Shown here: piece by piece, positions 10,070 to 53,524 of the stretch
Layout of the letters: each line of letters starts with the position of its first letter
Position numbering within the stretch: the stretch's first letter is position 1
The notes under the pieces: model-generated
Database searches by the model: none
Told to the model about the DNA's origin: nothing
What the model saw: only the letters and a program-made list of their open reading frames with translations
NCBI GenBank assembly: GCA_016183235.1
Contig: JACPFA010000033.1
Location: forward strand, 62,001 to 126,000
Length of the DNA: 64,000 nt
Origin: Deltaproteobacteria bacterium
GTDB lineage: Bacteria; UBA10199; DSSB01; JACPFA01
Direction: 5' to 3'
Translations under genes and position numbers: made by a program

Positions 10070-10192
10070 GGGGCCTCTAAAAAGGGCCCAGATGCAAGGC
10101 GCCCGCAAAGACGCGACCGGAGCGTATATGGAAATACGTGAGGATCGCGGCTTTGCGGGCAACGCTGCAGATGGGTCCTTTTTAGAGGCCCC
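10070..10192. repeat. Palindromic element P-B copy 1
   Basis: Arms at about 10070-10085 (GGGGCCTCTAAAAAGG) and 10177-10192 pair completely. The core has AGATGCAAGGC on the left and CAACGCTGCAGATGG on the right and matches the element inside RNase P RNA at 48326-48452 in order and length. Where the two copies differ in the stem both sides differ, so pairing is kept. It ends one base before the hpf stop codon and lies between hpf and cysD. Confidence 0.85.
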
Positions 10193-10513
10193 TTAGGCTG
10201 ATTTAATGGAACCATTGTGCCGCCGCTGCGATACCCTCAGGTCATGATCTTTGCGCAGCTGCATTTCTAATTTATGCACGGCTAGATCAATGGATTTATA
10301 CATGTCGTCGGACAATTCCGTGCTCGTATAATCCTTGCGATTGGCATGAAATTCAATCTTACATTGAAAACTCTGTTTTTTCCCAACCACCGCAAGATAA
10401 ACATGGGCATTATCCGGATCGGCAAACTTGGTAAGGTGACCCATAACGCCTTCAATATGATTTTCAATAGCTTCGGTTCTTTCTACATCGTGAAAATGAA
10501 TCTGAATTTGCAT
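10193..10513 (-). CDS. hpf: Ribosome hibernation promoting factor / sigma-54 modulation protein
   Basis: 106 residues from the ATG at 10513, chosen because AGGAG stands 6-7 nt upstream; an in-frame start at 10537 would precede that site. Short HPF/YfiA type: MQIQIHFHDVERTEAIENHI at the N-terminus, the beta-strand CKIEFHANRKD, and a helix ending in KLEMQLRKDHD. Binds the 30S decoding region in resting cells. It lacks the long C-terminal dimerisation domain. The stop codon is adjacent to palindrome P-B copy 1. Confidence 0.88.
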   Translation of the reverse strand: MQIQIHFHDVERTEAIENHIEGVMGHLTKFADPDNAHVYLAVVGKKQSFQCKIEFHANRKDYTSTELSDDMYKSIDLAVHKLEMQLRKDHDLRVSQRRHNGSIKSA

Positions 10514-10580
10514 TAAACACTCCTCATCGTCAAACAACGAATTCTGTTATGCTTATGGTTGGGATGAAATGTCAAGCCCA

Positions 10581-47940: not shown

Positions 47941-48215
47941 AAAAAGTTTTTCTGAGAGGGGCTAGAGGGTAACTTGAGAGCCTTTTAGCGCAGGAGGGCG
48001 GCTCCTTCGAGAAGCCTCAGGACAGGCTCCGGAGGGTATCTGTCATTGCGAGCCCAACGGGCGTGGCAATCTCACCGGTTAAACCGAGGAGATTGCTTCG
48101 TCCCCTCGACAGACTCGGGATAAACTCCGACTCCTCGCAATGACAGAAGCCCTCCTTAAGCCGACCGGGCGCGGGCTCTCAAGTTACCCTCTAGCCCCTC
48201 TCAGAAAAACTTTTT
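47941..48215. repeat. Palindromic element P-D copy 2 with nested complete R1
   Basis: Perfect 42-bp arms at 47941-47982 and 48174-48215. Core as in P-D copy 1; at the centre a complete R1 element at 48041-48145, nearly identical to the R1 nested in P-C copy 1 at 7759-7840 (shared TGTCATTGCGAGCCCAACGG, CTCACCGGTTAAACCGAG). 47683-48301 contains these palindromes and no credible gene. Confidence 0.9.
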
Positions 48216-48301
48216 AGGTACGGTAATTTGCAAATGAAATGGAAAAATGTCGTTTCAAAACCCGTATTGACTTTTGGATGACAATGCTCAAACCTAGATG
48301 C

Positions 48302-48730
48302 GAGGCAGAGAAAGAAGGTCGCTTTGGGGAGCCTCTGAAAAAGCTCCAGATGCAAGGCAGGCTGAGGAGGCCGACTGAGGCGTACTAACAAGTACGCCGC
48401 AGGGAGTGCCGACGAAGACAACGCAGCAGATGGACTTTTGCAGAGGCTCCCCCAGAGAGGAAAGTCCGGGCACCAGAAGAGCACCGTAGTGGGTAACACC
48501 CATCCTATTTGTCGAAAGACAGGTAGAGGACTAGTGCAACAGAAAGTATGTACGTCCGCTCGCGCGGAGCTGTAGTGAAATCAGGTAAACTCTACGGGGT
48601 GCAAAACCAAATAAGGAGTTGTTTCGCTCTTAACCATGACTCCGGGTAGGTTGCTTTATGACCCGCACAGTAATGTGTGTGGCAAGAGAAATGATCTTCC
48701 ACGACAGAACCCGGCTTATTTCTCTGCCTT
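48302..48730 (+). ncRNA. rnpB: RNase P RNA (class A) with a palindromic insertion at P3
   Basis: P1 is 48302-48313 paired with 48719-48730 (GAGGCAGAGAAA with TTTCTCTGCCTT). The conserved core is present: GAGGAAAGTCCGGGC at 48457-48471, CAGAAAGTATG near 48540, GGTAAACTC near 48585, and ACAGAACCCGGCTTA at 48704-48718. It is the catalytic RNA that matures tRNA 5' ends. The P3 region, a short hairpin in most bacteria, is replaced by about 127 nt matching palindrome P-B, which makes the gene about 429 nt. The core regions are intact, so it is judged functional. Confidence 0.95.
48326..48452. repeat. Palindromic element P-B copy 2 inside RNase P RNA
   Basis: GGGGAGCCTCTG (48326-48337) pairs with CAGAGGCTCCCC (48441-48452). 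The core has AGATGCAAGGC, a GGCGTAC/GTACGCC stem, and CAACGCAGCAGATGG, in the same order as P-B copy 1 at 10070-10192. It starts just after P2 (GGTCGC) and ends just before GAGGAAAGTCC, i.e. where P3 belongs. Confidence 0.88.
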
Positions 48731-48909
48731 ACTAAGGAGCCCCTAAGGTTCTACACATCTTGCTTCGGCTTATGGCCTGCGACTTCGTCAGGCTCGTCAA
48801 AAGTCCTCGACGTAGCGCTTTGGCTACGCCTCCGGGCTTTTGACTTCGCCTTCCTTGTCTCGGCTCATAATCCTATGCAATATGTGCAGAACCTTAGGGG
48901 CTCCTTAGT
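48731..48909. repeat. Palindromic element P-A copy 2, probable rnpB terminator
   Basis: Arms 48731-48758 and 48882-48909 (28 bp, one mismatch), directly against the last paired base of RNase P RNA and followed by eight T at 48912-48919. The core matches P-A copy 1 at 5266-5385; the arms do not. Confidence 0.85.
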
Positions 48910-49190
48910 ATTTTTTTTAAGTGAATTGACTGTGAATGGTTTGTGGATGATTGAGGCCTAAAATTATTTTACTTTATTTTTCAATGGTTTACAAATGACG
49001 CTGCGCAATATTTTATAATATTTTTTTAAAGGCATTTTTCCACACCCACGCTAGACGCTTAATTTTCAATAGTTTGCAAGGCACCCCCATGGCAAAGTCG
49101 GTCTAGTCAATAAAAAAACAGCTTTCCTCACCACGAATCATCATTAATCGTGGATTGGCCGGGCATCTCATCAAAAATTGGGTGAGGACG

Positions 49191-49244
49191 TTGACACACT
49201 ACATCTTGTGGTTTAGGCTGTAGCTCAACCACTACATATTGTGT
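49191..49244 (+). promoter_or_regulatory. nrdJ promoter with two NrdR boxes
   Basis: ACACTACATCTTGTGG (49196-49211) and CCACTACATATTGTGT (49229-49244) match the NrdR box pattern and are 33 nt apart, about three helical turns. TTGACA at 49191 and TAGGCT at 49214 (17-nt spacer) make a plausible promoter overlapped by the first box. NrdR represses RNR genes when dATP is high. No nrdR gene is in the window. The rest of the gap from 48920 to 49190 is AT-rich and shows nothing I can name. Confidence 0.75.
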
Positions 49245-49270
49245 TTTTGTTGGGAAGGAGGACTCTATTT

Positions 49271-52200
49271 ATGGCAACCAAAACAGCTATCCGTCAAACT
49301 TCGGTTCGTAACCGTAAACAAACTTTAGACGTAGCCCAAAAGGGCCTTAGCGTTAGGCGTTTATTTACTCGAGCGGGGGTTGATGCTTACGAAAATATCA
49401 ACTTTGTTCAACGTCAGTCCACTATTATTGACCCTGACGGATCCGTAGTTTTTCAAATGGATGCCGCTGAAGTTCCAGAAACTTGGAGTCAATTGGCCAC
49501 CGATATCTTGGTCCATAAATATTTTCGTAAACGCGGTGTTCCTGTAACCGGTGGCGAAAATTCGGCTAAACAAGTTTGCCATCGTATTGCCCATGCCATT
49601 CGCCAAGCCGGTGAAGCCTTTGGGGGATATTTCAAAGACGAGGCCGAAGCAGAAAGTTTTGAACAAGAACTTAAACACATTCTCATTTCCCAGAAAGGCG
49701 CCTTCAACTCTCCGGTTTGGTTCAACTGTGGGTTGTGGCACGAATATGGCATTGCGGGGAGTGGGGGTAATTTTGCTTGGAATCCAGAGACACGACAAAT
49801 TGAAATGATGGCTAATTCTTACCAAGCTCCCCAATGTTCGGCTTGTTTTATTCAATCGGTTGATGATGACCTGATGAGTATTTTTGATCTCATCAAAAGT
49901 GAAGCTCGATTATTTAAATACGGCTCGGGCACGGGCACGAATTTTTCAAAAGTTCGTGGCAGACAAGAACGGTTATCAGGTGGCGGCACTTCGTCGGGTC
50001 TCATGAGTTTTCTTGAAGTCTTAGATAAGGGTGCTGGTGCTACCAAAAGTGGTGGCACTACCCGGCGCGCTGCCAAAATGGTCTGCCTCGATATGGACCA
50101 CCCTGAAATATTAGATTTTATTAACTGGAAGGTTCGCGAAGAAGACAAGGCCAAGGCCCTCATTGCAGCCGGCTATCCCAGTGATTTTAATAGCGAGGCC
50201 TACAAAACTGTTTCTGGGCAAAATTCTAACAATTCATTGCGCGTAAACGATGAATTTATGCAAAAGGCTTTGAGTGGGGGGCAATGGAACACAACTTTTC
50301 GCACCACAGGTGAAGTTTGCGAAAGCTATGATGCCAGCCACTTGTTAGAACAAACTTGCACGGCCGCCTGGCGCTGCGCTGACCCTGGCTTACAATACGA
50401 CTCCACCATTAATAAATGGCACACCAGCAAAAATTCGGGCCGCATTAACGCAAGCAATCCGTGTGTGACTGGAGACACCGTTGTTGCCACAACTGAAGGG
50501 CTCAAGCCTATTATAGAACTTGTTGGGAAATCGGCAGATATTTTAAGTTTTGATGGGCGGATCGTCCATACTTCAGAAGTTTTCGCCACAGGGTTCAAAC
50601 CTGTTTTTGAACTTAAAACTCAAAGTGGTTATACACTCAAGTTGACTGAAGATCATAAAGTTTGGACTGTCAACCGTGGTGATGTCCCTGCCATAGAACT
50701 AAAAGATACCGACCAGTTTGTTTTAGTTCCAGGGCACTTTGGCACCACTCACTTAGAACAAAAAATGGCTGAATGGATTGGCCTTTGTGTTGGAGATGGC
50801 TGCAAGGCCAAAGATGCCCAAGGGCTTATCACAGTCACCATGGCAAGTGAAGAGAATGAAATTTTACAAGAATATGTCGATTATTTAAATACTCTCAAAG
50901 CAGATCGAAAAATTGCCGGTGTTCGATATACTGAGACAGGAGTTCGCACAGCCACTTCGGCACAAGTTATCAAAGAAGTGGTCGATAATTACGCAGTCCT
51001 TGATGAAGGTTCCGCTAAAAAAAGATTCGCCATCGAAGCATTTCAACTCGACAAATCAAGTGTTGCAGCCATTTTACGTGGTCTATTTACCACCGATGGC
51101 ACGGTCGCAAACTATGGAGAAAAATCACAATACGTTGCCCTTGATTCGACGAGTCTTGTCCTACTTCAACAAGTTCAAAAAATGCTTCTTTCTTTTGGTA
51201 TCAAGTCAAAGATTTACGAAAACCGCCGGGCAGGAAAACTCAACGCCCTTCTACCTGACGGAAAAGGCAACGCAAAAATCTATCCCGTACAAGAGATCCA
51301 TTCATTAAGAATCAGTCGTAGCTCGCGGATTTTGTTTGAACAATTTATTGGGTTCCATCCCCGCTCACAAAAGTCAAAGGCATTGCAAGAACTCAATCAA
51401 AAGGTCGGTGTCTATCAAGACCATTTAATAGATACTTTTAAATCTCTCACTCCCCTCGGTATTCAAAAAGTTTATGATTTACGAGAGCCTCTAACTCACC
51501 ATTTTGTTGCCAACGGTTTGCTAGTCCATAATTGTTCTGAATATATGTTTTTAGACGACACGGCCTGCAATTTGGCATCGGTTAACTTGAGCAAATTTTT
51601 AGATGAAGCAGGTAATTGGGATGTTGAAGGTTACCGCCATACAGCTCGCATGCTCTTCATCGCCCAAGAAATTTTGGTGGATTTTAGTTCTTACCCCACT
51701 TCTAAAATTGCCCTCAATAGCCATGACTATCGACCCTTAGGTTTGGGTTATGCCAACCTGGGTTCTTGTTTGATGCGATTAGGCATCCCCTACGATTCAG
51801 AAGCCGGCCGTGCCATTGCGGCTGCCCTCACGGCCATTCTTTGTGGACATGCTTACAAAACTAGTAGCGAGATGGCCGCTAATAAAGGCCCCTTCCCAGG
51901 CTACGAAAAAAATCAAGAACCCATGGTAGAGGTCATGAATTTGCACCGTGATCACGCTTACAAAATTGATGAGCGGCATTGCCCAAAAGATTTATTAAAA
52001 GCCGCTCATGAAGATTGGGACGCCGCGGTAGAATTGGGCGAAAAATTTGGCTATCGCAATGCCCAGGCCACGGTTTTGGCGCCCACTGGCACGATTGGTT
52101 TATTGATGGATTGTGACACCACAGGGATTGAACCCGATTTTTCTTTGGTGAAATTTAAAAAGCTGGCCGGCGGCGGTTATTTTAAGATTGTCAACCAATC

Positions 52201-53524
52201 GATTCCGGCGGCTTTAAAAAAGTTGGGTTATTCGGCGCGTGAAATTGCTGATATTGTCACTTATATTCGTGGCACATCTTCACTCCGCAATGCCCCGTTC
52301 ATCAATTTTGAAACTTTAAAGCAAAAAGGCTTTACTGAAGCTGAGTTAGATAAAATCGAATCTAAACTCGAAGGGGTGTTTAACTTAAGCCAAGCGTTTT
52401 CAGTATTTAACATCGGAGAAGAAACTCTTGCCCGTTTAGGATTTCAAAAATCCAAAACCTCAGACGCCAACTTTAATTTACTCAAAAGTTTAAGTTTTAC
52501 CGATGAACAAATCGAAGCAGCTGAAGTTGTTATTTGTGGCACCATGACCATTGAAGGGGCTCCTCACTTGAATCCTGAGCATTTGCCCATTTTTGATTGT
52601 GCCAATAAATGCGGCAAAAAAGGCAAACGCTTTCTCTTACCGATGAGTCATGTGAAAATGATGGCCGCAACGCAGCCCTTTATTTCGGGGGCCATTTCTA
52701 AAACGGTGAATCTTCCTCATGAAGCCACTGTTGAAGATATCCGCCAAATTTATGTAGAAGGTTGGAAGTTGGGCCTAAAGGCCATTGCCCTTTATCGCGA
52801 TGGTTGTAAAGCCAGCCAGCCTTTATCTTCGGGTACAGAGCAAAAAGAAAAGACGGAGCCGGCGCCTGAAGTCATTGCACCCAAACCACTGGAACGAAAA
52901 CGTCTTCCGCTCAAGCGCCGTGGTTTCACACAAGAGGCGCGGGTTGGCGGGCATAAGGTTTATTTACGCACCGGCGAATATGAAGATGGTGCCTTGGGTG
53001 AAATTTTTATCGACATGCACAAAGAAGGTGCTGCCTATCGCAGCATGATGAACTGCTTTGCCATTGCGGTTTCCTTAGGCTTGCAATACGGGGTCCCACT
53101 CAAAGAATTTGTAGATGTATTTACCTTTACCCGTTTTGAACCTCAAGGCTCGGTAGATCATCCTAATATTAAATTTGCCACCTCCATCATCGATTATATT
53201 TTCCGAGTGATCGGCTTGGAATATATGGGCCGAACCGACTTTGTGCAGGTGAAACCTGAATCGGTTACCCCCACCAGTATTGAGCCAGTTCAGTCGCTGC
53301 CGCCTGCAGCAGCAACTGAAAGTTCTCCAAAACTAGAATTAATCCAGGGCCAAAAAGAAGAAGACCCACAATTAGCCGCAAATAGTTTGGGCAAGAGTTT
53401 GAACAGTCAACTTTCTACCATGATGGGTGATGCCCCCTTCTGCGACAGTTGTGGTCACATCACGGTGCGCAATGGGGCCTGCTATAAATGCCTGAATTGC
53501 GGCAATTCGATGGGCTGTTCATAA
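49271..53524 (+). CDS. nrdJ: Vitamin B12-dependent (class II) ribonucleotide reductase with intein
   Basis: 1417 residues before splicing, about 1060 after. Start at ATG 49271 because AAGGAGG precedes it; an in-frame ATG at 49241 lies inside the second NrdR box. Catalytic features: first active-site Cys in [17 protein letters not shown] (interrupted by the intein between Pro and Cys), [22 protein letters not shown], and a C-terminal Cys-rich tail FCDSCGH...[13 protein letters not shown] that re-reduces the active site. Makes dNTPs using adenosylcobalamin with or without oxygen. No ATP-cone is seen at its own N-terminus. A degenerate paralogue with an ATP-cone-like region is at 19510-22074. 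Confidence 0.96.
50462..51532 (+). mobile_element. Intein with LAGLIDADG homing endonuclease in nrdJ
   Basis: 357 residues from Cys (CVTGDTVV, block A) to the terminal His-Asn ([10 protein letters not shown]), followed by Cys of the extein. Block B is seen as [11 protein letters not shown]. Two DOD-type motifs, [10 protein letters not shown] and [10 protein letters not shown], mark the endonuclease. The insertion point is immediately before the catalytic Cys of NPCSEY, so the reductase is inactive until the intein is removed. All splice-junction residues are present. Confidence 0.95.

Follow-up and report, generated by a model that had tools for sequence, protein, structure and literature searches.

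How did an essential RNA come to carry a 127-nt palindrome in one of its helices? The question is raised by the RNase P RNA gene (rnpB) of a deltaproteobacterium (assembly GCA_016183235.1), which lies in a window of 64,000 nucleotides, the whole stretch of DNA analysed here and the reference for all coordinates. The interval 48302–48734 matched RF00010 at 142.4 bits (cut-off 100), identifying a class A RNase P RNA, and no other place in the 2.61-Mb genome matched RF00010, so that a single rnpB was detected. The original prediction had placed P1 at 48302–48313 and 48719–48730, described the conserved core sequences as intact and proposed folding the RNA as a check. In the minimum-energy fold, P1 formed at these positions (12 pairs, one of them G-U), followed by a run of pairs leading into a single long hairpin. 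P2 was read by eye rather than computed, because its helix crosses the P4 pseudoknot. The core is also intact next to the insert, as judged from the RF00010 alignment and from the blocks kept relative to six relatives. The features of the gene are as follows:

48302–48313, forward strand: 5′ strand of rnpB P1, paired with 48719–48730 in the minimum-energy fold
48314–48320, forward strand: 5′ strand of rnpB P2 (GAAGGTC), partner 48693–48699, by eye against relatives
48322–48325, forward strand: 5′ side of the P3 host stub, ~4 bp, pairing with 48454–48457 with C48453 bulged, read from the sequence
48326–48452, forward strand: palindromic, very probably mobile element in P3, 127 nt, from the covariance model, blastn copies and fold
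48326–48337, forward strand: left outer arm of the element, GGGGAGCCTCTG, perfect 12-bp complement of 48441–48452
48348–48358, forward strand: conserved core block AGATGCAAGGC
48426–48432, forward strand: conserved core block GCAGATG, across the stem from AGATGCAAGGC
48441–48452, forward strand: right outer arm of the element, perfect 12-bp complement of the left arm
48457–48715, forward strand: RNase P core, GAGGAAAGTCCGGGC to ACAGAACCCGGCTTA, from the RF00010 alignment and the alignment with six relatives
48719–48730, forward strand: 3′ strand of rnpB P1, from the minimum-energy fold

The region spanning the insert (48316–48460) folded with z = –7.15, and none of 200 shuffled sequences was equally stable. 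The predicted duplex is long and near-continuous, yet it is broken by frequent internal loops. P3 was originally thought to have been replaced by a 127-nt element. An element of that length is indeed located in P3, but the replacement was not outright: a host stub of ~4 bp persists beneath the insert, and P3 is therefore greatly extended instead. The RF00010 alignment does not begin before 48415, a position within the insert, which displaces the true 5′ side of the gene; repeats of this type can displace covariance-model alignments of rnpB. A search of 48100–49000 against Rfam 15 (4227 families) up to E = 5 returned RF00010 alone and no family for the insert.

P3 is known to vary in length, in agreement with the lengths that we measured by counting the bases that separate the P2 strand from GAGGAAAG. 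These counts were used because a simple helix finder overshot P3 in several relatives. They are also independent of a MAFFT alignment of seven sequences, in which the 5′ end of the present rnpB was misplaced. The present genome has 134 bases in this interval. An rnpB match was found in six of the seven same-order genomes, and the interval in these was 17, 18, 20, 20, 24, and 25 nt, which is the short P3 that the original prediction proposed to look for in relatives. Among 41 rnpB loci of the phylum, 39 could be measured (the present genome and 38 others, G042 and G033 having no recognised P2 box), and all 38 relatives fell between 10 and 98 nt. When the covariance model of the element was run over the window and 40 other rnpB loci, the element was found inside rnpB in the present genome only and was absent from the gene at 40 of 40 other loci; one of these (G008) has a copy upstream of rnpB, outside the gene. 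Another same-order genome (G005) has 17 matches to the model elsewhere but only 25 nt at P3. Since the order-level relatives have a short P3, this element-carrying genome included, the long P3 appears to be new to the present lineage. The empty site would correspond to the short P3 of these relatives, which are the nearest available to the comparison.

Two other members of the phylum also have a longish P3, of ~100 nt in G034 (L191, 350–449) and ~59 nt in G014 (L055, about 955–1013). Neither sequence is repeated in its own genome, so we make no case for P3 as a general landing site. This repeat test covered G034 and G014, leaving out the suggestive-looking G029 and G044.

Within its own genome, the insert is one among dozens of copies. 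The exact 11-mer AGATGCAAGGC occurs 54 times compared to zero for the reversed control, a few of the 54 reading as chance matches, and the two-block pattern that pairs it with GCAGATG occurs at 32 places (control, zero). A blastn search with rnpB against its own genome gave 18 matches including itself, and those of the insert elsewhere reached E = 2.6e-29. A covariance model built from 30 sequences gave 112 matches at E ≤ 0.01, or 79 distinct places after merging strands, though cores of a second palindromic family (see below) may be among the weakest. The copy in rnpB scored 110.0 bits (48326–48453), less than the relative that had been proposed near hpf:

10070–10192, forward strand: same-family copy beside hpf, 121.6 bits with the covariance model

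Both copies were in the training set and so match the model by construction; the independent support for their relatedness comes from the exact core 11-mer and from blastn of rnpB. The hpf-side relative is thus real, and the suggestion that the copies might prove unrelated is countered by blastn, the 11-mer, and the covariance model, which together establish kinship. With dozens of copies in the genome and a short P3 in relatives, the original reading of an interspersed element within an essential RNA is supported. The S30AE/HPF gene (10193–10537, minus strand) adjoins the hpf-side copy: the gene ends where the element starts, its stop codon lying at the edge of the element arm.

Copies are ~125 bp across the family. 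The copy in rnpB falls into a minor subgroup, the nearest core among the copies compared being 91.8% identical. We noted that another member of this subgroup lies immediately 5′ of a tRNA-Leu gene (L060), and that two more (L063 and L065) read as broken by extra sequence at the tip, which suggests nested insertions.

The family extends well beyond this genome. At E ≤ 1e-4 the covariance model found the element in 33 of 46 genomes of the phylum, 11 of the 46 containing the two-block pattern. In a wider sample, the pattern was present in 20 of 385 genomes, namely the same 11 and nine outside the phylum; one of the nine (G087) does not resemble the element, leaving eight credible genomes. No similar sequence was found in plasmids and phages at E = 0.01. 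When 84,980 species were scanned for element ends lying 8–38 nt from the rnpB block GAGGAAAGTCC, three stretches were returned and no second case: two stretches from Saccharibacteria are chance matches just 5′ of GAGGAAAG and not an element in P3, and one from Pseudomonas was read as not being rnpB. The scan pattern was exact, so diverged ends would be missed; it fits the window by eye, and the window's own record possibly lies outside the collection. The literature that we searched, which was poor in subscription papers, held no description of the core sequence or of the element family. The motif in the accessible part of PMC4666352 is a different one, and the accessible part of PMC10969869 does not mention RNase P or rnpB.

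When 30 sequences were aligned, changes on both sides were seen in 19 of 31 stem pairs. Two-sided cells numbered 130, compared to 45.2 ± 6.6 after shuffling and at most 76 when partners were slid. The outer arms were the most variable, while AGATGCAAGGC and GCAGATG were invariant, partly because the sequences had been collected by those words. The alignment thus shows a family that keeps its predicted stem through compensatory change.

Evidence on how the family moved comes from the flanks of sister copies. Composite copies carry a left extension, starting GGGCACCTCTAATAACTTGGATTT, that is absent from the rnpB copy, a simple one; the extension sequence was found at 17 places in the genome. Among composites with both ends, a 4-mer was common to both flanks in 16 of 22 (shuffled mean, 2.6), and none of 5000 shuffles reached that number. 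For simple copies the figure was 4 of 23 (1.4 after shuffling), with 199 of 5000 shuffles as high. The flanks in this test were trimmed by hand. The target duplications of this subset of sister copies are 4–5 bp and show that the family, at least in its composite form, moved as DNA. No target duplication is visible at the flanks of the rnpB copy; as the duplications belong to left-extended composites, this copy would have arrived in the same way only by analogy with them. At the one such locus that was read (L204, near position 1500), the left extension ACCTCTAATAACTTGGATT stands alone, with no palindromic core, and apparently provides the final part of a neighboring gene's frame.

A transposase driving the family would be expected between the ends GGGNACCTCTAA. 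Y1_Tnp, the domain that we examined, was matched twice in the genome, once by a sequence containing stop codons; G017, another carrier of the element, gave no match, and no transposase could be tied to the family by this means. The element resembles bacterial MITEs and REP/RAYT systems in being a small palindromic multi-copy repeat, with short target duplications in a subset of copies. An origin from REP/RAYT was rejected for lack of a clear link: the distribution of Y1 transposases does not follow that of the element, and REPs, given as 20–40 bp in the accessible part of PMC3733652, are much shorter than the ~125 bp found here. The element is MITE-like in its length of 127 bp, its perfect 12-bp arms, and its 79 dispersed places.

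Repeats inside rnpB are not without precedent. The STRR sequences of cyanobacteria reportedly lie in the P12 region of the gene. These repetitive sequences, the subject of Vioque, 1997, are likewise located inside rnpB, but they are short tandem repeats, whereas the present insert is one structured palindrome. The closest parallel comes from Rickettsia, where palindromic elements (RPE) occur in the tmRNA gene and in rnpB, the gene of M1 RNA (Delihas, PMC2229807, citing Ogata et al., 2002). RPEs are 105–146 bp and their effect may be neutral, according to the same text. Both systems place a palindromic interspersed repeat within an RNase P RNA gene, and this kind of event is therefore already known. 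The host here belongs to another phylum, and the parallel is drawn from size, palindromic form, and location within the gene. As far as our searches show, in literature poor in subscription papers, novelty lies in the host group, in the element, and in its clear position within P3. Intervening sequences (IVS) of 23S rRNA are similar insertions into a structural RNA; they are cut by RNase III (PMC11270868, accessible part), and the IVS of Coxiella holds an ORF (PMC4990558, accessible part), whereas a 127-nt palindrome is seen here.

Collectively, our results make it very likely that a non-autonomous, MITE-like palindrome of ~125 bp entered the P3 hairpin in the sole rnpB of this lineage. A hairpin landing in the loop of a peripheral hairpin would lengthen that hairpin. 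As the element folds into a hairpin of its own, its arms could stack on the residual P3 stub and form a long P3 arm directed away from the core, and the RNA would still fold. The insert is most likely tolerated rather than functional, and would have been kept because its cost is small and not for any function.

Other explanations were weighed against this insertion. The reading that P3 lengthened by itself and resembles the repeat through convergence could draw on the variable P3 lengths of the phylum, including the two long, unrepeated examples above, but it is refuted by the strong blastn matches of the insert elsewhere in its own genome. An assembly or binning artefact, in which element copies were misjoined at rnpB, is very improbable. 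The assembly consists of 51 contigs and repeats are typical break points; nevertheless, the insert is unlike every copy compared, both P3 flanks are present, the contig is 153,672 bases long, and contamination is 0.2%. It is somewhat easier to imagine, though still improbable, that the element has been domesticated, such that the P3 arm is a working domain under selection, for example a protein-binding or stability element. The rnpB copy does retain perfect 12-bp arms and the core despite its limited identity to the copies compared, and its arms differ from those of other copies on both sides simultaneously. Kept pairing is, however, seen equally in copies outside rnpB, leaving nothing special to the rnpB copy, and none of the 40 other rnpB loci of the phylum has the element inside the gene.

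An alternative that is compatible with insertion concerns the fate of the transcript. RNase III might cut the long duplex, as in an IVS, so that the mature RNase P RNA would consist of two pieces joined by P1/P2 and tertiary contacts, like fragmented 23S rRNA. The near-continuous duplex would suit such cleavage, and 23S rRNA is fragmented at inserts by RNase III without ligation (PMC11270868, accessible part). On the other hand, frequent internal loops interrupt the stem, and the accessible part of that article makes no mention of RNase P. We regard cleavage as rather unlikely. Equally tentative is a broader view, in which the insert represents a family of structured palindromes that crosses phyla and has not been described: compensation lets the stem vary freely while the facing blocks AGATGCAAGGC and CAACGC-GCAGATG stay near-invariant. 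The folded core would then be recognised by a protein or RNA process that maintains or disseminates the hairpin. Here that hairpin would have settled as a lasting domain of an essential ribozyme, and cleavage within it might yield a two-piece RNase P RNA.

The tolerated insertion amounts to a natural experiment: an essential RNA bearing a mobile hairpin at a peripheral helix indicates where extra sequence can be accommodated. The case also offers a test of whether RNase P RNA works when cut in two, and it draws attention to a widespread palindromic family that combines strong stem covariation with a conserved core and matches nothing in Rfam.

Upon inspection of the sequence downstream of rnpB, we noted another repeat:

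48730–48910, forward strand: second palindromic repeat family, 181 bp, adjoining P1 on its 3′ side, with a T-run beyond it

This second family has 35 genomic matches, among them the palindrome itself and its reverse. The run of eight Ts (48911–48918) is parted from P1 by the second palindrome, which may therefore now serve as the terminator stem of rnpB. Its core scored 26.3 bits with the covariance model of the P3 element, and the two palindrome families may therefore be distantly related. Next to rnpB lies a class II ribonucleotide reductase gene (49241–53524), which contains an intein with a LAGLIDADG domain.
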